Assembly: GCA_004297655.1 (NCBI GenBank)
Contig: SCUN01000197.1
Coordinates: 1 to 33,119 of the forward strand
Reading direction: 5' to 3'
Length of the DNA: 33,119 bases
Origin: Acidobacteriota bacterium
GTDB lineage: Bacteria > Acidobacteriota > Vicinamibacteria > Vicinamibacterales > SCN-69-37
Both the position numbers and the translations under genes were made by a program. The notes beneath the pieces are model-generated. The model was given only the letters and a program-made list of their open reading frames with translations. It was not told the origin of the DNA and ran no database searches. Positions 265 through 27,319 of the stretch are shown here, one piece after another. The first letter of the stretch is position 1. Each line of letters opens with the position of its first letter.

Positions 265-2294
265 CAGCCCTCCAATACGCGGTGAAGTTCGCGCACGAGT
301 TCGTCAGTTCCCACCGGCTTCGCGAGAAACGACGTCGCGCCAAGCGCCATGGATCGCGTCTCGCCACGCCCGGAATTGCTCCCGGAAATCACGATGATCG
401 GCAACTCGCGGCCTCTCGGCGTCTGTCGCACATGTTCGATCAAACCAAACCCGTCCGCCACGGGCATATGCAGATCCACGACCATGGCATCGTAGGAACC
501 CGAGTCATACAGCGATCTCGCCACCCGCCCGTTCGACGCCGGCGCCACTGAGAATCCGTTACGCGACAGCGCCTGCGTCAGCACCTCGCGCAAATCGCCA
601 TCGTCTTCGGCCAGAATCACCGAGGCTGACGAACGCTTCGGCGACGCCCGGTACGGTCCGGTCGGCGCCCGCTCCAGGCTCTCGGCGTACGGCACCTGCA
701 GCGTAAACACGCTGCCCTGCCCCACGACGCTCTCGACACTGATCGTGCCGCCGTGCTCTTCGATCAGCGCCTTCGCGATGGCGAGCCCCAGCCCGGACCC
801 GCCCCTCGCCCGAGTGGCCGAACTGTCGAGCTGTTTGAATTTGCTGAACAGCCTCGGAATGTCCGACACCGCAATACCGGGGCCGTGATCGCGCACGCTG
901 ATGCTGACGCCGCGCTGACCGAGATGCGTCGTCACCGTCACCACGCCGCCGGCCGGCGAGAACTTGATCGCGTTCGACACGAGGTTGGTCAGCACTTGAG
1001 CGAACCGGTCCGGATCGACCCGAATCAACGCCGGCCGTTCCGGCGCCTCGACGACGATCCGCACGCCGGCGGCACGCGCCATTTCGCCGGAGACTTCAAG
1101 GCTCGAGCGCACGATGTCGGCGGCGTCGCAAGGCACCAGCTTCAGCTGCACCTGGCCGGCCTCGATCTTCGACACGTCCAGGATGTCGTTGATGATGCGG
1201 ATCAGGCGTTCGCAGTTCTTGAGGGCAATCTGCAGCAACGGCTCGTGATCGGGATCCCGGAACGCCGGCGGATCGTCGAGCACGATCTGCAACGCGCCGC
1301 GCACGGATGTCAGCGGCGTTCGCAGTTCGTGACTGACGACCGACACGAATTCGCTCTTCATCCGGTCGACTTCCCGCCGCTCGGAGATGTCGCGCACATT
1401 GCCCGCGAAGTGGCGGCCCTGGTCCGTCTGGAATTCGAACAGCGAGAGTTCCATCGGGAAGGTCGTGCCGTCCTTCCTGCGCGCCTCCCACTCGGTCACT
1501 TTTCCCAGCGCGGGGCCCGGCAGTGCCTTCAGCGCAGCCAGCGCCTGTTCGTCGGACATCGCCATCAGCACACGGATGGACCGGCCGATCAGCTCATCCG
1601 GCGAATAGCCGAAGATCCTCACCGCCGCGGGGTTGACCGACTCGATCTTTCCGCGATCGCTTGTCGTGATCAGGCCGACGACCATCTTGTCCACGATGAC
1701 GGAGAATCGCCGTTCCAGCGCCGCGCGCGACCGATCCGTGCGCATCTGAGCCTGCGTCTGCCGGTAGATCACGAACAAGGCGCCCGCCAGGATGGCGCCG
1801 CCGCCGACGGCCAGAACCAGCAGCGTCTGGACGACGCTCTGAATGTTCTGCTGCCGCGCGTCGAGGCGCCCGTTGAGGAGGGCCGTCTCTTCGGCCGCCA
1901 TTTCGCCGAGGAGCCTCAGCGCCTCTTCGGTCGCGCCCGTCGACAACGCCGCGTTGACGCCGGCAATGCGCGCCTGCTGCGTCGGGCTCGGCACCATCGA
2001 CGACAGCGCCGCGATCGTGCCGCGCACGCGAAACTGATCCTGCTCGAGGCCGAGGTTCGCCGGGGCACCGCCGACCTTCTGACGCAGCTCGGCCAGCGCC
2101 GTCCCCGCCACGCCGATGCGCGCGCTCTCAATGAGTTCGATGACCTCGCGCGACTGTCCGACCGCCTCGTGAGACGCGCCGAGCAGTTGGGCGCCGCGGA
2201 CGGCCAGAGCGGCGATCGAGGCCAGGACCACGAACGCCATCAGCGCGCCGACGATCGTTCGTCTCTTGAGCGACCCGGCCATCTCAGACGCCAA
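264..2294 (-). CDS. Hybrid sensor histidine kinase (TM sensor - PAS - HisKA - HATPase - C-terminal REC)
   Basis: N-terminal TM and sensor region, PAS (VNPAAVRIFGYSPDELIGRS), H-box FVSVVSHELRTPLTSVRGAL, N/G boxes (NLVSNAIKFSPAGG, DHGPGIAVSDIPRLFSKF, GSGLGLAIAKALIEEHGG), C-terminal receiver (VILAEDDGDLREVL...VVDLHMP...KPVG). Confidence 0.95.
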   Translation of the reverse strand: MASEMAGSLKRRTIVGALMAFVVLASIAALAVRGAQLLGASHEAVGQSREVIELIESARIGVAGTALAELRQKVGGAPANLGLEQDQFRVRGTIAALSSMVPSPTQQARIAGVNAALSTGATEEALRLLGEMAAEETALLNGRLDARQQNIQSVVQTLLVLAVGGGAILAGALFVIYRQTQAQMRTDRSRAALERRFSVIVDKMVVGLITTSDRGKIESVNPAAVRIFGYSPDELIGRSIRVLMAMSDEQALAALKALPGPALGKVTEWEARRKDGTTFPMELSLFEFQTDQGRHFAGNVRDISERREVDRMKSEFVSVVSHELRTPLTSVRGALQIVLDDPPAFRDPDHEPLLQIALKNCERLIRIINDILDVSKIEAGQVQLKLVPCDAADIVRSSLEVSGEMARAAGVRIVVEAPERPALIRVDPDRFAQVLTNLVSNAIKFSPAGGVVTVTTHLGQRGVSISVRDHGPGIAVSDIPRLFSKFKQLDSSATRARGGSGLGLAIAKALIEEHGGTISVESVVGQGSVFTLQVPYAESLERAPTGPYRASPKRSSASVILAEDDGDLREVLTQALSRNGFSVAPASNGRVARSLYDSGSYDAMVVDLHMPVADGFGLIEHVRQTPRGRELPIIVISGSNSGRGETRSMALGATSFLAKPVGTDELVRELHRVLEG

Positions 2295-2652
2295 GCAGTT
2301 CCCGCACCCTGTCGCCGAGCGTCAGCGCGTCGAACGGCTTCGTGATGTAGCCGATCGCGCCGATGCTGAGGCCCGTCTTCAGTTCCTGCTCCTGGCTTCG
2401 CGCCGTGAGGAAGATCACCGGCACCGCGGCCGTGGCCGGGTCGGCCTTCAGCCGACGGCACACCTCAACGCCGTCGAGTTCCGGCATCATCCAGTCGAGC
2501 AGCGCCACGTCCGGCATTTCGCTCGTGACGCGCTCGAGCGCCTCGCGGCCGTTGGTCGCGAGCACCACCTGGAATCCCGCGCGCTTCAACGACAGCCGGG
2601 CGACAAGCTGAATGTCCGGATCGTCTTCGGCCAGGACCACCTTGAGGCTCAT
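2284..2652 (-). CDS. Single-domain response regulator (REC)
   Basis: MSLKVVLAEDDPDIQLVARLSL...VALLDWMMPELDGVEVCRRLK...VIFLTARSQ...GYITKPFDALTLGDRVRELLGV; 11-nt overlap with the next gene. True start is the internal ATG at 2652, not the 4329 start in the ORF track. Confidence 0.92.
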   Translation of the reverse strand: MSLKVVLAEDDPDIQLVARLSLKRAGFQVVLATNGREALERVTSEMPDVALLDWMMPELDGVEVCRRLKADPATAAVPVIFLTARSQEQELKTGLSIGAIGYITKPFDALTLGDRVRELLGV

Positions 2653-4061
2653 GGCTTCGCAAACCCTTTCCGTGTCATGGTGCCCCAGCCCTGCTTCTTT
2701 TTGAAGAAGTCGATCACGCCTTTCAGTCTCCAGTACGTGGTCAACTGACGATACCCGAAGTTCTCGATCACGCCGACCGAGGCCAGCACCAGCAGATCCG
2801 TGGCGCGAGGATATCGCCGAAACGACAGTTCTTCGAGCACGACCGCGCCCACGGAGATGATCGCGCCGTAGGCAATCGCCGCGAGAAACAACAGCTCGGC
2901 GAAGCGCCAGTCGAGCAGCCCCAGCGACACTGCCAGAATTGTCACGACAAACCCGCTGAACTCGATGACCGGTCCGAGCGCCTCGAAGAGCAGGTAGTAC
3001 GGCATGGCGAACAGCCCCACCACGCCGTACCGCGGGTTCGCCATCATGCGCTTGTGATAGCCGAGCACCTGCATCGTGCCGCGCTGCCACCGGTTGCGCT
3101 GGCTGCCGAGGATCTTCCTCGACTCCGGCGCTTCCGTCCAGCACACCGGGTCTGGCTGGAACACGATGCGGTATCGCTGCCGCGCTTCGCGCGCCCGCCG
3201 GTGCAGCCGTGTGACGATCTCCATGTCCTCGCCGACCGTATCCGCGCGGAAACCGCCGACGGCAATCACCGCCTCGCGCTTGAAGATCCCGAACGCGCCG
3301 GAAATGATCAGCAGCGCGTTGGCCGCCGACAACGCCACGCGGCCGGCCAGAAACGCCCGCAAATACTCGACGACCTGGAACATCGCGAGACGGTTCTTCG
3401 GCAGACGCACTTCGGTGACCTTGCCGGCCTCCACCGTGCAGCCGTTGACGATGCGCACGATGCCGCCGGCGGCGAGGGTGTCGGGGTCTTCGATGAACGG
3501 CAGCACCGCGCGCGTCAGCGCGTGTTCCTCGAGCAGCGAATCCGCGTCGATCACGCACACCAGCGGATGCCGCGCCGCGTTGATGCCGGCATTGATCGCG
3601 TCCGCTTTGCCGCCGTTCATCTTGTCGATCGCCACCAGATCCGGATATCGCAACGTTCGATAGACCGCCTTCACGGGCTGCGACTCGATCGGCTGCGCGT
3701 AGCTGGCCGGCGCCGGCTGCATTTCGTACCCGGCCGCCAGCACCTCCATCGTCTTGTCCTTCGCGCCATCCACCACGACGACGATCTCGAACGATGGGTA
3801 ATTCAAGAGCAGCAGCGACCGCACGCTCTCGCAGATCGTCGCCTCCTCGTTGTAGGCGGGCACAATCAGCGAGATGCCCGGCGTGGCCGGCGAGCGCATC
3901 AACGCGCTCAATTCCTGCGACGTCCATCGGCGGCGATGCTGGCGCAGCTTGACGAAGGCGACGACGCAGAAGACGAGATAGAGCGTGTTGAGGACGAGAA
4001 AGTACGCGAGGACGCCGAGATCGAAGACCGAGAGGAACAGAATGACGTAGTGGCGGAGCAT
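2649..4061 (-). CDS. Membrane glycosyltransferase family 2 (processive polysaccharide-synthase type)
   Basis: N-terminal and C-terminal TM segments, SLIVPAYNEEATICESVRSLL, VVVVDGAKDKT, DADSLL, GEDMEIVTRLH, SQRNRWQRG (QxxRW), start MLRHYVILFLSVFDLGVLAYF; ATGA overlap with the downstream REC gene. Confidence 0.92.
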   Translation of the reverse strand: MLRHYVILFLSVFDLGVLAYFLVLNTLYLVFCVVAFVKLRQHRRRWTSQELSALMRSPATPGISLIVPAYNEEATICESVRSLLLLNYPSFEIVVVVDGAKDKTMEVLAAGYEMQPAPASYAQPIESQPVKAVYRTLRYPDLVAIDKMNGGKADAINAGINAARHPLVCVIDADSLLEEHALTRAVLPFIEDPDTLAAGGIVRIVNGCTVEAGKVTEVRLPKNRLAMFQVVEYLRAFLAGRVALSAANALLIISGAFGIFKREAVIAVGGFRADTVGEDMEIVTRLHRRAREARQRYRIVFQPDPVCWTEAPESRKILGSQRNRWQRGTMQVLGYHKRMMANPRYGVVGLFAMPYYLLFEALGPVIEFSGFVVTILAVSLGLLDWRFAELLFLAAIAYGAIISVGAVVLEELSFRRYPRATDLLVLASVGVIENFGYRQLTTYWRLKGVIDFFKKKQGWGTMTRKGFAKP

Positions 4062-4063
4062 CG

Positions 4064-5158
4064 TCAGGCGCCTCCCGCCGAGGCGCGCGCGCGCGCCTGC
4101 CGTTCCCACAGCATCTGTTTCGCCAACGCCGCGGCCTGGCCGTCGCCCGTGGCGCTGGCGGCGAGCACGCTCGCGCCGGCCGCGTGGAGGCCGAGCAGCG
4201 CGCGCGCGCTTTCGGCCGCGACGGTCCAGTTGCCTTCCTGCAAATGCTCGCCGAGATATGTCGCGGCGTCGTCGCGCCCGCTGCGTCCGAGCGCGCGGGC
4301 CGCCATCGCGCGCACGCCCGCGTCGTCATCGGCCAGCGACTTCAGCGCGTAGTAGAAACCCGCGTCGTCCAGGCCGATCGTGCCAAGCACATTGAGCGCG
4401 GCGGCACGCACGGGCGCGTCCCCATGACCGCAGAGCGCCAGACACTCCTCTGTGGCGGCGCCGCCGCAGATCGCCGGCACGAGGTCGGCGACGAACGGCA
4501 GCACGTCCGGCCGGCGGCGGATGGACTCCATCAAGGCGGGTCCGCCGTCGGCGCCCAGCGTTCGGAGCGCATCGACGATCCGCACACGCTGGTGTCGGGA
4601 TTGCTCGGGGATTCGGGCCAGCAGTTCCTGCACGGCACGAAAATCGCCAAGGCGGCCGAGCGCCTCGACGGCGGCCGCTCGAACCTCCTCATGATCGTCG
4701 TCGAGCGCGACGGCCATGGCGAGGAACGATCCGGCGTCCTTGATCACGCCCAGCGAGCGGATCGCCTCGGCGCGCCGCCACCACTGACGGTGCCGGATGT
4801 CCTGCCGCCAGGTCTCGGCCACGCCGGCGTCGACGGCGAGGCCGGCGCCGAGCGCCACGGGCCCGCCGGAGAACGACAGGAGCGGCGCGACGATCATGCG
4901 CCCGAGAAGCAATGGCGACCGCCGCCCAAACCGCAACAGGCGCGCGCGATCTTCCGGCGTCGCGCGCTCGCTCAGCCAGCGATCGACCAGCGGCTGAAAG
5001 CGCGATTCGAGCAGCGCGCGACGCCGATCGATCGACGATCGAATCACGCGCTGCACGACCAGCGCGACAAGCAGCACGATGAAGAGCGCGGCCGCGCCGA
5101 TCAGGAACGGCACGAGGACCTGCCGAAAGATGTCGGCGATCCGCAGGACGGTGGTCAT
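4064..5158 (-). CDS. Membrane-anchored HEAT-repeat protein
   Basis: N-terminal TM helix (LVPFLIGAAALFIVLLVALVV) followed by HEAT-like repeats (RRAEAIRSLGVIKDAGS.., EVRAAAVEALGRLGDFRAV.., GVRAMAARALGRSGRDDAA..). Confidence 0.85.
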   Translation of the reverse strand: MTTVLRIADIFRQVLVPFLIGAAALFIVLLVALVVQRVIRSSIDRRRALLESRFQPLVDRWLSERATPEDRARLLRFGRRSPLLLGRMIVAPLLSFSGGPVALGAGLAVDAGVAETWRQDIRHRQWWRRAEAIRSLGVIKDAGSFLAMAVALDDDHEEVRAAAVEALGRLGDFRAVQELLARIPEQSRHQRVRIVDALRTLGADGGPALMESIRRRPDVLPFVADLVPAICGGAATEECLALCGHGDAPVRAAALNVLGTIGLDDAGFYYALKSLADDDAGVRAMAARALGRSGRDDAATYLGEHLQEGNWTVAAESARALLGLHAAGASVLAASATGDGQAAALAKQMLWERQARARASAGGA

Positions 5159-6657
5159 CGAACCAGTCGCGCGACCCGCGCCATCAGCTCCTGCGGGCTG
5201 AACGGCTTCGTCATGTAGTCGTCGGCGCCAAGGCCGAACGCGCGCGTCACATCTTCCTCGCGGCCGCGCGCCGACAGCACGATCACGCGCGGCCGTTTCG
5301 CGGCGTTGGCGATCTCCGTCAACACGTCGAAGCCGGTGCGTTTCGGCATCATGAGATCGAGCACCATCAGATCGGGCTGCTTTTCCGCAACGGCGGCGGC
5401 CGCGGCGTCGCCGTCAAAGACCATCGCCGTTCGATAGCCGGCCGACTTGAGCTGGGCGTCAACAATGCGCATGACCGACGGATCGTCGTCGGCAAGAAGC
5501 ACGAGCGGCGAGTACGCGGCAGGTTTGGCGGTGCCGAGCCGCGCACCGTTCAACTGGTGATCGGCTTCCGCCAGGAGAGCCTCGAGGGACTTCGCGCCGG
5601 CCGCGGCAGATTCGGCCGCGCCACCGATGAGCCCGGGCCAGGACTTCTCGAGGTCGGCCGTGCGCGCCGCGGCAATCTCCCCTGTCGCCGCCGCGAGCAG
5701 CCACACGACGTGGCCGGCGTCGAACATCGCCACCAGGTCGGAGCGCCGCGCCGCGCCAGCGATGGCGCCGGCGACCTCCGCTTCGCGTCCGAGCGGAAGT
5801 CGCACGAGCGCGAGGGCGGCTCGATCCCGGCGCAGCCGCTCCTGAGCCGCCAGCACGAACGCTTCGTAAGTGAGAAGGCCGTTGTGTTCATCAGCCGTCG
5901 TCGTCGCGCGGGTCTTGAGCAACAGACTCAGCCGGAGGATGAGTTCCGACTGGTCGATCGGCTTGATCAGATAGTCGTCGGCGCCGAGCGCCACGCCGGT
6001 CAGCCGATCGCTCATCGACGCGCGCGTCGTCATGAACACGACGGGCGTGGTGGCGAGCTCGGGCGAGGATTTCAGTTTCCGGCAGATCGCGTGGCCGTCG
6101 GTGCCAGGAAGATCGATATCGAGAATGATGAGCGCCGGATGTTCGAGGCGGGCGCGATTGAAGACGTCACTGCCGTCGCCGGTCGCGGACACCTGGTAGC
6201 CCGCCGCGCGGAGCCATGTCGTGACGATCCGAAGCTGCGTCTCGTCGTCTTCGGCGACCAGCACGCGCGGGCCGGCCGGACGGCCTGGGGCCTTCGCCCA
6301 CGCCGGTTCGGGTTTCGCCAGATCCGCGGCAAAACTCTCCGACAACTTCATAAGGGCCAGCGAGATGTCGTTGGCCTTGACGCCCGTTTGTCCCTGTGAA
6401 GCCGCGACGACGAGTTGTTCGAGATCCGAGGCTTTCGCGCTGACGCTCGGAAAACCGAGCGTGCCCGCGATGCCGGCCATTTGATGCGTCATACGGCGCG
6501 CGGTCGCCTGTGATCCCGCAGCCTCACCATCCGGCGACCCCATCGCGTCGAACAGCAGCGTCAGCGACCGCACGCGTCCGGGAAACGCTTCGATGAAGCG
6601 CACTCGCGCTTCTCGCATGACAGTTTCCGGATCGTCGAAGTCGAGCTCTTCAGCCAT
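5155..6657 (-). CDS. Multi-domain phosphorelay protein: Hpt - REC - degenerate GGDEF-like region - REC
   Basis: Hpt-like ARRMTHQMAGIAGTLGFPSVSAKASDLEQ; REC1 RVLVAEDDETQLRIV..LIILDIDLPGTDG..KPIDQSEL; REC2 LVLLADDDPSVMRIV..LMVLDLMMPKRTG..YMTKPFSPQELMARV; middle part lacks GGDEF. ATGA overlap with the HEAT gene. Confidence 0.85.
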   Translation of the reverse strand: MAEELDFDDPETVMREARVRFIEAFPGRVRSLTLLFDAMGSPDGEAAGSQATARRMTHQMAGIAGTLGFPSVSAKASDLEQLVVAASQGQTGVKANDISLALMKLSESFAADLAKPEPAWAKAPGRPAGPRVLVAEDDETQLRIVTTWLRAAGYQVSATGDGSDVFNRARLEHPALIILDIDLPGTDGHAICRKLKSSPELATTPVVFMTTRASMSDRLTGVALGADDYLIKPIDQSELILRLSLLLKTRATTTADEHNGLLTYEAFVLAAQERLRRDRAALALVRLPLGREAEVAGAIAGAARRSDLVAMFDAGHVVWLLAAATGEIAAARTADLEKSWPGLIGGAAESAAAGAKSLEALLAEADHQLNGARLGTAKPAAYSPLVLLADDDPSVMRIVDAQLKSAGYRTAMVFDGDAAAAAVAEKQPDLMVLDLMMPKRTGFDVLTEIANAAKRPRVIVLSARGREEDVTRAFGLGADDYMTKPFSPQELMARVARLVR

Positions 6658-13788: not shown

Positions 13789-14586
13789 ATGTCACCGTCT
13801 AAGACGGACATGATGGTCGCCCCTTCGCCAATCCGAACTCTCATCGCCGACGACGAACCGCTCGCGCGTGAGCGCGTGCGCTCACTTATTGCCGACCAAC
13901 CCGGCCTTTCGGTGGTCGGCGAAGCCCACGACGGCGATCAGGCCGTCGAACAGATCCTCGCCCACCAGCCCGATCTCGTCTTTCTCGACGTGCAGATGCC
14001 GAAGAAGACCGGCTTCGACGTGATTCAGTCCGTCGGCGCCGACCGGATGCCGGCGGTGGTGTTCGTCACCGCCTACGATCAGTACGCGATCAAGGCGTTC
14101 GACGTCCATGCGGTGGACTATCTGATGAAGCCGTTCGACCGCGAGCGCTTCGAGGGCGCCGTCGATCGCGCGCGGCGTCACTTCGACGCCAACGACAGCG
14201 GCGCGCTCAAATCACAACTGCTTCGGCTCGTTCAACAGCTCCAACCGTCCTCCGCCCCGCGCCAGGAACGGCTCATCGTCAAGACCGGCGGCCGCCTGTT
14301 CTTCCTCCGGGCCGACGAGATCGACTGGATCGAGGCCGCCGGCAATTACGTGCGGCTCCACGTCGGCAAGGACGCGCATCTGCTGCGCGAAACGATGAAC
14401 TCCATTGAAGCGCGGCTGGATCCGAAGATCTTTCTCAGAATCCACCGCTCGCGCATCGTGAACATGGAGCGCGTGAAGGAGCTGCACCCGTGGTTCAACG
14501 GCGACTACGCCGTGATCCTGCGCGACGGCACGAAGCTCATGTTGAGCCGCGGCTATCGCGACAAGCTGCAGGAAAGATTGATGTAG
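13789..14586 (+). CDS. LytTR-family response regulator
   Basis: IRTLIADDEPLARERVRSLI, LVFLDVQMPKKTGFDV, DYLMKPFDRERF; C-terminal LytTR (DEIDWIEAAGNYVRLHVG..FLRIHRSRIVNMERVKELHPWFNGDYAVILRDGTKLMLSRGYRDKL). Confidence 0.95.
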   Translation: MSPSKTDMMVAPSPIRTLIADDEPLARERVRSLIADQPGLSVVGEAHDGDQAVEQILAHQPDLVFLDVQMPKKTGFDVIQSVGADRMPAVVFVTAYDQYAIKAFDVHAVDYLMKPFDRERFEGAVDRARRHFDANDSGALKSQLLRLVQQLQPSSAPRQERLIVKTGGRLFFLRADEIDWIEAAGNYVRLHVGKDAHLLRETMNSIEARLDPKIFLRIHRSRIVNMERVKELHPWFNGDYAVILRDGTKLMLSRGYRDKLQERLM

Positions 14587-23876: not shown

Positions 23877-24989
23877 TTAGAGCAGGAGCGATTCCACGCG
23901 GTGGGCGTGGACCATCTGTTCCACCGACGACCACTTGAAGATTGTGAAGCGCCCGTCCTGGGACGCGACGAGCGCGATCGCATCCGTCTGATCGTGGACG
24001 AACTGCGCCGCTGAGAGATGGCGCGTGCCGCCCAACTGTCCGGGCGACACGATCGTCGGCGCGCTGCCTTCGATCGGCTCGGTCAGCGAAATCCGCTCCA
24101 CGGTCGAACTGCCTTTGCGCCGGTTGATCTTCACGCCGAACGCCAGCACGTCGTAGGCGTCGTTCATGACCATCGCGCCGTCCACGGCCGTGAGACCGGC
24201 GACGCCTTCGACGGCATGCCGCAGGTCGTCGGCGTCGCCCTGGCGGCGGATCAGATCGCTGAGTCCGGTGAACGGCGGGTCGAGCGCGTACAGCGCCGGA
24301 AATACGGTCGACTGCATCCAGTCGTCGGATCCGGACGGTGTGACCAGCAGCGCGCCGCCGCGGCCGTGGCCGCGCATCGATGCGGCCAGTTGCACGAGCA
24401 CGTTGATGCTGTCGGCGCCGGACTTCGGCACGATCTGCCGGTCGAGCCCGAGGAGCGATTGCAGCACGCCCGGGCAGTCGGGCACCTGGGCGCTGCGCTC
24501 GTCGACGAACTTCACCTGATCGCCCTCGAGCACCGCGACGTTCACGAACTTGCCCATGAGCTCGCTGCGCTGTTTGATGACGAGCAGGCCCGACGTCACG
24601 ACTTCGATCACGAAACAATGCGCCGGCAGATGCCGCGTCGTGCCCCACACCTTCAACTGGCCGTCGGCGCCCACCGACACGCCGAGGTGAATGCCCGGCC
24701 GCTCCACCGCCGGCGCCAGCTTCGCGAGCGCCGCGGGCGCGACGGGCAACGGGCTGGCGAAGAGCAGCGGGTTGATCGTGTCGTCGGGCGACGCGAAGGC
24801 GAGCGAGATCTTCGGCGTCACGCCTTCTTCCCGCCGGAGGCTCGCCCAGAACGCGGCGTCCACGAGCGTCTCGATGTTCGAGGCGTCGGGCGCGGACCGG
24901 TAGCGTGAAAAATACGCCGCGATACGCGGCGCGACGGCCCCGGCAGCCGGATACGCGTGCGTCGTCAAAACGTCTTCCTCGCGATCCAC
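23877..24989 (-). CDS. Diadenylate cyclase (DisA_N/DAC)-like protein with N-terminal DACNV-type putative sensor domain
   Basis: C-terminal DAC-like motifs: VDGAMVMNDAYDVLAFGVKI (DGA) and LGGTRHLSAAQFVHDQTDAIALVASQDGRFTIFKW (RH[R]xA-like). N-terminal VWGTTRHLPAHCFVIEVVTSGLLVIKQR. Start uncertain (GTG 24989 or nearby TTG). Confidence 0.75.
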   Translation of the reverse strand: MDREEDVLTTHAYPAAGAVAPRIAAYFSRYRSAPDASNIETLVDAAFWASLRREEGVTPKISLAFASPDDTINPLLFASPLPVAPAALAKLAPAVERPGIHLGVSVGADGQLKVWGTTRHLPAHCFVIEVVTSGLLVIKQRSELMGKFVNVAVLEGDQVKFVDERSAQVPDCPGVLQSLLGLDRQIVPKSGADSINVLVQLAASMRGHGRGGALLVTPSGSDDWMQSTVFPALYALDPPFTGLSDLIRRQGDADDLRHAVEGVAGLTAVDGAMVMNDAYDVLAFGVKINRRKGSSTVERISLTEPIEGSAPTIVSPGQLGGTRHLSAAQFVHDQTDAIALVASQDGRFTIFKWSSVEQMVHAHRVESLLL

Positions 24990-26125
24990 TCACGATACAG
25001 CGAGTCGGTCAGCATGTACCGGGATCCGTCGCGCATCACGATGTCCTCGCGAATGAGCGCCGCCAGCGACGACTGCACGCTCGAGGCGCCGGCCAGCCGA
25101 TGGCGCTGCCGCACATCGGCCGAGAGCAGTTCCTCGCCGCCCTCGAGGACGAGCGCCCGCAAGACGCCGCGCTGAGCCAGCGTCAGTCGCTGCCAGGATT
25201 CTTCGAAGACGATGCCCTGCTGGCGGAGGATGCGGCTGAGCGTGGCGTGGAGATCATCCACGCCCACCGCCTTCCGCCCCGCCGCCTTCACATCGTCCCA
25301 GGTCTCGTGCGCGAGTCGCTGAACGTCGTACGGGACGTTGTCGGCGAGATCGACGATCGCGGCGCCGAGACCGCTTTCCGCGCGAAGGCCGGATTTGGCG
25401 AATCGCGCTTCGAGCCACTCGGCGAAGTCCGCCGGATCGATCTTCTGCAGCCGCATCACCGGGCCGGCCTTGTAGAAGGGGCGCCGCGGACTGATCATCC
25501 GGTCCATGAGCGACGGCTCGGACCCGGCGAAGACGTAGCCGACGTCGCGCTGCTGTTGGACGGCGGCGCGCAGCGCTTCTTCGACCGACCCCTCGTCAAA
25601 CGACGCGATCGTCTGGAATTCGTCGAGAGCGATCGCCACCGGGCGCTTGCGCGCCGCCGCGATGCGGCCGGGCAGCGCGAAGACCTCGGCGGCGAGCCGG
25701 CCGGCGTCGCGGCTGGTTCTGACAGTCGGGAACGACAGCGACAAGGAGGGCGCGCCCGGCCGATCTGATCCGCCCGGGTCCACGGTGATCTCCGGCCGCA
25801 TGGACCGCATCAGCTCGCCGGCCCACTGGCGGAACCGGGCGATCGGCGTCTCGGCGGCGATGAGCGCCTGCGCGTAGGCCTCGAGGAACCCGACGTAGGA
25901 ACTCGATCCCGCGACGGTGACCGAGACGGTGATCACGCGCTCGCGGGCGAGGCTGTCGAGGGCGCGCCGGATCAGCGACGACTTGCCGTAGCGGCGCGGG
26001 GAGATCAGGAAGACCTTCTGCCCGGCGCGCAGGTCCTCGGTGAGGCGGTGGTATTCCTCGTCGCGGTCGGCGAAGGCGCCGGCGGCGACGATTTCGCCGT
26101 AGATGAACGGGTTCGATGACGCCAT
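24965..26125 (-). CDS. P-loop ATPase of ATPase_2/AAA (STAND, MNS-like) type with C-terminal winged-helix region
   Basis: Walker A SPRRYGKSSLIRRAL, Walker B VAIALDEFQTI, sensor-like YVFAGSEPSLMDRMISPRRPFYKAG, C-terminal wHTH LTLAQRGVLRALVLEGGEELLSADVRQRHRLAGASSVQSSLAALIREDIVMRDGSRYMLTDSLYREWI. Confidence 0.85.
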   Translation of the reverse strand: MASSNPFIYGEIVAAGAFADRDEEYHRLTEDLRAGQKVFLISPRRYGKSSLIRRALDSLARERVITVSVTVAGSSSYVGFLEAYAQALIAAETPIARFRQWAGELMRSMRPEITVDPGGSDRPGAPSLSLSFPTVRTSRDAGRLAAEVFALPGRIAAARKRPVAIALDEFQTIASFDEGSVEEALRAAVQQQRDVGYVFAGSEPSLMDRMISPRRPFYKAGPVMRLQKIDPADFAEWLEARFAKSGLRAESGLGAAIVDLADNVPYDVQRLAHETWDDVKAAGRKAVGVDDLHATLSRILRQQGIVFEESWQRLTLAQRGVLRALVLEGGEELLSADVRQRHRLAGASSVQSSLAALIREDIVMRDGSRYMLTDSLYREWIARKTF

Positions 26126-26172: not shown

Positions 26173-26667
26173 GTGTTGCGCGGCTGGCTGCAGACCGAAC
26201 TGGCCCGGGCCGGGGCCTGGGGCCCGGGGGCCCTCTACGGGCTCTACCTGGCGCTCGGCGCCGTGCGCGGGTTCACGCTCGTGCCGTCGACGACCCTGGT
26301 GCTGGCGGCGCTGCCCTTCTTCCCGCCCGGCCCGCTCCTCGTCGCCACGATCGCCGGGATCATGCTGTCGTCGGCCAGCATCTACTACGGGTCGGCGGCG
26401 CTCAGGCTGGACGAACGGCTTGCGAAGAAGCATCCGGAGAAGATCGCCCGGTTGACCGACATCCTCAACCGCTACGAACTCCCGATCATCATCGGATGGA
26501 GTTTCTTCCCGTTGGCGCCGACCGACCTGATCTGCTACGTGTGCGGCGTGTTGCGGGTGCGCTTCTGGAAGTTCCTGCTGGGCGTGACGCTCGGCGAAGG
26601 CGCGATTTGCGCTTTGTACATCTACAGCGGTGACCAGTTCCTGCGATGGCTGGGGTTTCGGCAGTGA
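26173..26667 (+). CDS. Small integral membrane protein, VTT/DedA-like
   Basis: Several TM segments; LYGLYLALGAVRGFTLVPSTTLVLAALPFFPPGPLLVATIAGIMLSSASIYYGSAALRLDERLAKKHPEKIARL..GWSFFPLAPTDLICYVCGVLRVRFWKFLLGVTLGEGAICALYIYSG. Confidence 0.7.
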   Translation: MLRGWLQTELARAGAWGPGALYGLYLALGAVRGFTLVPSTTLVLAALPFFPPGPLLVATIAGIMLSSASIYYGSAALRLDERLAKKHPEKIARLTDILNRYELPIIIGWSFFPLAPTDLICYVCGVLRVRFWKFLLGVTLGEGAICALYIYSGDQFLRWLGFRQ

Positions 26668-26694: not shown

Positions 26695-27267
26695 CTAGGC
26701 GCGTCCCGCGAACTCGCGCGTTTCCGTGTGGACCTTGATCCGCTCGCCTTCCTTGATGAAGAGCGGGACCTTCACATCGAGCCCGGTGTTGGTCCTCGCG
26801 GCCTTGGTCACGCTGCCGCTCGAGGTGTCGCCGCGCACCGCGGGTTCCGTTGAGGCGATCGTCATCTCGACGAGGGCGGGAAACTGCAGGCTGATCGGGT
26901 GGCCGTTGTACTTGTGGACCTGGATCTCGAGGTTGTCGACCAGTAGAAACCGGTCCTCGCCCGTCTGCTCGGCATTGAGCGTCAGCGTCTCGTACGACGA
27001 CTGGTCCATGAAGTGGTAGCCGTCGCTGTCTGAGTACAGGAACGTGGCCGGGACTTTGACCAGGTCCGGGTCGCCGAACTTGTCGCCGGCCTTGAAGGTC
27101 TTGTCGAACACCGCGCGCGTCAGAAGGTTGCGCATCTTCAACCGCACCAGCGTCTGCCCCCCGCGCGCCGTCGGCCTCGAGATCTCCACTTCCAGACAGT
27201 TGTACGGGGCATTCTCGTACTCGAAGTACATCTTGCGCTTGATATCAATCGCCTCAATCAAACTCAT
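26695..27267 (-). CDS. Elongation factor P family protein, EfpL/YeiP-like loop
   Basis: MSLIEAIDIKRKMYFEYENAPYNCLEVEISRPTARGGQTLVRLKMRNLLTRAVFDKTFKAGDKF...YHFMDQSSYETLTL...VPLFIKEGERIKVHTETREFAGRA. Confidence 0.92.
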   Translation of the reverse strand: MSLIEAIDIKRKMYFEYENAPYNCLEVEISRPTARGGQTLVRLKMRNLLTRAVFDKTFKAGDKFGDPDLVKVPATFLYSDSDGYHFMDQSSYETLTLNAEQTGEDRFLLVDNLEIQVHKYNGHPISLQFPALVEMTIASTEPAVRGDTSSGSVTKAARTNTGLDVKVPLFIKEGERIKVHTETREFAGRA

Positions 27268-27279
27268 GATTAATCGTAG

Positions 27280-27319
27280 GGGGACGTACCCCTTTTCCAC
27301 AACTTTTCAACAGTTGGGG
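27280..27319 (+). repeat. 40-nt dispersed repeat, copy B
   Basis: GGGGACGTACCCCTTTTCCACAACTTTTCAACAGTTGGGG. Confidence 0.9.

Follow-up and report, generated by a model that had tools for sequence, protein, structure and literature searches.

Genes at the locus

In the 33,119-nt stretch of Acidobacteriota DNA analysed here (contig SCUN01000197.1, referred to as the window) a gene for a protein resembling diadenylate cyclases (DAC), with RHL in place of the RHR motif, directly follows a gene for an ATPase. The locus thus raises the question of what a DAC-like protein lacking the third arginine may do, and whether the ATPase is its partner.

The sequence-only reading had described a 370-aa product (GTG start at 24989) with the motifs VDGAMVMND and GGTRHLSAAQF and an upstream ATPase ORF, and both ORFs are indeed present at their coordinates. 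The overlap of about 25 nt claimed for them had to be corrected to 4 nt (TTGA). In two sister species the DAC protein starts with MAEP/VAEPxYPAAR, which aligns with a TTG at 24968 of the window, and a GAGGA is located 7 nt upstream of this TTG. Because of the aligned N-termini and this putative Shine-Dalgarno sequence (24976..24980, minus strand, within the 3′ end of the ATPase gene), TTG 24968 is the probable start, and GTG 24989 is unlikely to be the true one. The refined DACNV-DAC gene extends over 23877..24968 and the ATPase gene, encoding an AAA/ATPase_2-like protein of 386 aa, over 24965..26125, both on the minus strand; residue numbers of the DACNV-DAC protein are counted from GTG 24989 throughout. 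The junction between the two genes shows a 1-nt overlap (TGATG) in one sister species, and the genes abut (TAAGTG) in the other. Within the genus, dN/dS stays below 0.3 for the DAC gene (about 0.21–0.27 against the window gene, 0.12 between the sister species) and amounts to 0.08–0.15 for the ATPase gene. These low values indicate that both are real genes constrained by purifying selection.

Further upstream follow a gene for a VTT-domain (DedA-like) protein on the opposite strand (26173..26667, plus strand; PF09335, E 3.6e-18) and, beyond it, the gene for elongation factor P (EF-P; 26695..27300, minus strand), recognized by its Pfam EF-P domains. Away from the DAC locus, the window also encodes three response-regulator receiver-domain proteins, one of them with LytTR (2284-4329, 5155-6657, 13789-14586).

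Domain assignment of the DAC-like protein

The assignment as a DACNV/DAC-type protein proved right. The DACNV domain (residues 31–118; 24636..24899, minus strand) was matched by Pfam PF21751 with 100.1 bits at a cut-off of 27 (E 8.2e-29; 1.5e-29 in the genome search). This domain was reportedly described in a paper from 2015. The DAC-like domain (approximately residues 196–355; 23925..24404, minus strand) remained below the threshold of PF02457, with 15.9 bits at a cut-off of 27 (E 0.0097) over residues 321–349 around the TRHL motif. Aligned orthologs behave alike: DACNV was matched in 36/36, DAC weakly (E<0.1) in only 12/36.

A DACNV search of the order (162 genomes) gave matches in 65 genomes, which split into clade 1, containing the window protein, and clade 2, sister DACNV-DAC proteins with GTRHR. 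By hhalign, whose E-values apply to single comparisons, clade 1 aligned with clade 2 over the full length (100%, E 3.8e-49, a score that includes the common DACNV domain), and clade 2 aligned with canonical CdaA profiles at 99.4% probability. The direct comparison of clade 1 with CdaA was weak (5%, E 0.0078). Since clade 2 matches both, we regard the C-terminal half of the window protein, by way of this bridge, as a DAC domain of divergent type. An AlphaFold model built from three sequences reached a mean pLDDT of 45, and no DAC structure came up when the PDB was searched with the clade-1 profile.

Gene neighbourhoods and c-di-AMP setting

The DAC gene follows different genes in different lineages. 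One family (f12) has the order hspR-like MerR gene, dnaJ, clpB, ftsH, DAC gene, with spacing between ftsH and the DAC gene ranging from a 4-nt overlap to a 7-nt gap in six measured loci and amounting to 28 nt in one. In another (f3) the gene of a DEAD-box helicase precedes the DAC gene with an apparent 4-nt overlap in four loci, as measured with a long upstream frame that was read as the basic tail of the helicase. In a third (f1) the preceding gene encodes EF-P, at a gap of 5–37 nt. By association, the DAC gene appears as a recurrent downstream, translation-coupled gene behind lineage-specific genes for protein quality control or translation. Our literature searches turned up no description of DACNV-DAC proteins with proteostasis or translation operons, and no phosphodiesterase or receptor linked to clade 1 was found.

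A canonical CdaA is present in 57/60 relatives including the genome of the window, which furthermore carries a c-di-AMP riboswitch (RF00379, 57.4 bits; L249, G000:C139:1790-1957). The DACNV-DAC protein is therefore considered accessory. One genome of 98% completeness (G015) carries a clade-1 DACNV-DAC protein (L034), and no canonical DAC was found in it by family search.

Several single loci deserve mention. A clade-2 DACNV-DAC gene with RHR precedes trkA and trkH, at a distance of 15 nt from trkA (L040:1736-5897, G007), an arrangement that suggests control of potassium uptake by c-di-AMP. Canonical c-di-AMP systems have a role in potassium homeostasis. On the Hymenobacter monticola plasmid NZ_CP094535.1 (L248:2584-6110) a patatin-Omp85 phospholipase gene is immediately followed by the gene of a DACNV protein that has GGTRHR. 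At three places (L209 in G078, L211 in G074, and G076:C1:201005-201067) we saw remnants of the clade-1 DAC gene that were short or interrupted by stops, and in some relatives the gene thus seems to be in decay. In the tree, two clade-1 proteins of a family that does not belong to the window's class (L188 in G232, L204 in G341) nest near members of the order, which may reflect horizontal transfer.

Active-site residues and loss of the third arginine

The DGA motif (D270–A272; 24174..24182, minus strand) is invariant in all 58 clade-1 rows of the alignment and in two divergent relatives, which belong to other families of the same phylum. The TRHL motif (T322–L325; 24015..24026, minus strand) replaces TRHR, and SQD (S343–D345; 23955..23963, minus strand) is the counterpart of (V/I)SEE with its metal ligand (canonical motif roles after PMC7288161); the Ser is found in 57/58 rows. 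D270, G271, A272, G321, T322, R323, H324, Q344 and D345 are invariant across the 58 rows. The third RHR position is occupied by Leu (51 rows), Phe, Met, Val (two each) or Ile (one) and never by Arg in clade 1, and by Ser and Gln in the two divergent relatives. In clade 2 it is Arg in 12/12 rows, including those from Hymenobacter (Bacteroidota) and row L042. The tree separates the set without the third Arg from the RHR set with 99% SH-aLRT, the placement of the two divergent relatives being unsure owing to long branches. The altered RHR that had been noticed in the window protein is thus real and a trait of the whole subfamily.

Compared to clade 2, clade 1 shows further changes near the site: besides R325→L these are R329→Q, on the same helix as RHR and replacing a second Arg, as well as E287→K, a gained R290 and an R364 near the C-terminus that is invariant. 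R329→Q, K287, R290 and R364 may compensate for the loss or alter the dimer geometry.

In Listeria CdaA the ATP site comprises Leu31, Asp71, Leu88, Gly101, Thr102, Arg103, His104, Ser122, Glu123 and Glu124, and the third RHR Arg is absent from this list of ATP and metal contacts (PMC7288161, a review). According to the alignment, clade 1 matches Asp71, Gly101, Thr102, Arg103, His104 and Ser122; Glu123, a main-chain contact, is Gln, and the metal-binding Glu124 is Asp. The GG-x-LL segment of clade 1 is the probable counterpart of Leu31 in the CdaA motif GALI. Since the mapped contact positions are kept or conservatively replaced, the subfamily probably retains ATP binding at the DAC site. This weakens the suggestion that the altered motif points to different chemistry or to inactivity. 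Replacing RHR by AAA abolishes c-di-AMP synthesis in Mycobacterium tuberculosis DacA (PMC3328451) and activity in Bacillus thuringiensis CdaS (PMC4568413); the literature searched contained no mutant in which only the third Arg had been exchanged.

Our leading, still tentative reading of these data is that the window protein is an accessory, probably cytosolic DACNV-DAC member of a subfamily which lacks the third Arg, has kept the nucleotide pocket and may make c-di-AMP. The conservation in 58 homologs speaks for a live site, because a dead one would not be expected to be conserved in this way. It is quite conceivable, if doubtful, that the protein is instead a pseudo-cyclase, in which ATP or c-di-AMP would be a mere ligand of the DAC site, without synthesis, and which would act as a regulatory nucleotide sensor on its operon neighbours. 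The clade-wide loss of the third Arg with subsequent drift of the position (L/F/M/V/I/S/Q), the exchanges of Arg329 to Gln and E287 to Lys, the inactive AAA mutants and the supply of c-di-AMP by canonical CdaA are in line with this. Nevertheless, the DGA Asp and the acidic metal-ligand residue are both invariant, and conservation of the two would not be required of a site that only binds a ligand.

It is rather unlikely that the subfamily produces a different nucleotide, a mixed or a linear dinucleotide, or acts as a nucleotide hydrolase. The concerted changes of clade 1 near the site would fit such different chemistry, but the substrate is conjectural and the changes may touch the dimer geometry only. 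A bolder and likewise improbable version holds that in this strongly constrained subfamily, which occurs in several classes of one phylum, the rearranged site (K287, R290, Q329, R364) would make some nucleotide signal that is not c-di-AMP, with DACNV as its gate and a connection to proteostasis operons.

Distribution of the adjacent ATPase

The ATPase contains a Walker A motif (SPRRYGKSSL; its SPRRYGKSS part at 25976..26002, minus strand, is invariant in a 15-row alignment) and an LDEF motif, and matches AAA_22 with 31.2 bits, above the cut-off of 27. Judged by these features, it has a P-loop AAA/STAND ATPase core; the C-terminal winged helix of the sequence-only reading is putative. Pfam ATPase_2 was matched with 23.9 bits, below its cut-off of 33.2, and a profile of the protein matched PDB entry 2fna weakly (E 0.0029).

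Homologs of the ATPase, usually single-copy, were found in 75/162 genomes of the order; outside the genus, near-complete matches have 58–73% identity and one distant match has 28%. The DAC gene is patchy, being present in 59/162 genomes. Both genes occur together in 37 genomes, the DAC gene alone in 22 and the ATPase gene alone in 38, which corresponds to an odds ratio of 2.9 (p 0.002) with kinship ignored. Only in the window's genus, in the three genomes sampled from it, do the two genes lie side by side. Elsewhere the ATPase gene is located, for example, near histidine-biosynthesis genes or a gene for an MFS/ATG22-type transporter, and the neighbourhood survey found no ATPase gene next to DAC homologs outside the three congeneric genomes. 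On these grounds we rejected the idea of a conserved DAC/ATPase pair. The coupled DAC and STAND two-gene system proposed in the sequence-only reading, which had named homologs lacking a conserved ATPase partner as its refutation, is not supported beyond the genus.

One sister species has the order EF-P, ATPase, DAC, and in related genera the DAC gene, with no inserted ATPase gene, comes immediately after that of EF-P. The ATPase gene therefore seems to have moved into the operon. This relocation would have taken place in an ancestor of the window's genus, and the ATPase would be co-translated with the DAC gene yet not be its general functional partner.

No link to conflict systems was found. 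PADLOC gave no hit for the DAC protein, the best the ATPase achieved against defence models was a weak match to mad8 (E 6e-5), and no defence genes were seen among the scanned genes of the window, the Pfam-scanned neighbours looking like housekeeping genes. Relatives were not found in IMG/VR and phage records, and a single plasmid match has 27% identity. A dedicated two-component conflict or defence system, with a DAC-like signal producer and a STAND switch, is thus very improbable: co-translation in three species of one genus, the resemblance of the ATPase to ATPase_2/MNS-type STAND proteins and the mild co-occurrence speak for it, but the genes part outside the genus, many genomes have only one of them, and models, neighbours, phage and plasmid records offer nothing beyond the weak matches given above.

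Proposed role and comparison with known systems

Most likely the window protein is an accessory nucleotide enzyme or sensor linked to stress operons. If it is an accessory cyclase, as we prefer, its DAC site would bind ATP and a divalent metal under the gating of DACNV, and the protein, once in the right oligomer, would form c-di-AMP or a closely related nucleotide. It would thereby add, locally and conditionally, to the output of the housekeeping CdaA when protein quality or translation is under stress. The DACNV match, the bridge through clade 2, the tight coupling to ftsH, DEAD-box helicase and EF-P genes, c-di-AMP signalling in the host and the clade-2 relative at trkA-trkH argue for this reading. 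Against it stand the inactive RHR→AAA mutants (PMC3328451, PMC4568413), the weak direct DAC match, the mean pLDDT of 45, the lack of a linked phosphodiesterase or receptor, the patchy occurrence of the gene (59/162) and its decay in some relatives.

The point of interest is a constrained DAC subfamily without the third Arg. It offers a natural test of whether this residue is needed in diadenylate cyclase chemistry, as relatives with and without it exist, some within one genome, and the site is otherwise conserved. Furthermore, it connects proteins of the DACNV-DAC type with operons for proteostasis and translation (hspR-dnaJ-clpB-ftsH, DEAD-box helicase, EF-P).

Among known systems, the ATPase_2/MNS-type STAND ATPases (PF01637; PDB 2fna) share the P-loop, LDEF and a similar layout with the window ATPase, which falls under the ATPase_2 cut-off, so that its STAND class is a resemblance by core and by the weak 2fna match. 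The DACNV proteins (PF21751; ‘putative sensor domain DACNV-containing protein’ at NCBI) have in common with the window protein the N-terminal domain and a DAC-like region after it; sister members including those of Hymenobacter have GTRHR or GGTRHR, whereas the window subfamily has GGTRH[LFMVI]. With CdaA, DisA and CdaS (PF02457) the window protein shares DGA, G-T-R-H, Ser and, in the place of the metal ligand, an acidic residue, all in the same order, but it differs from them by the missing third Arg, SQD instead of SEE, a DACNV N-terminus and low direct similarity.
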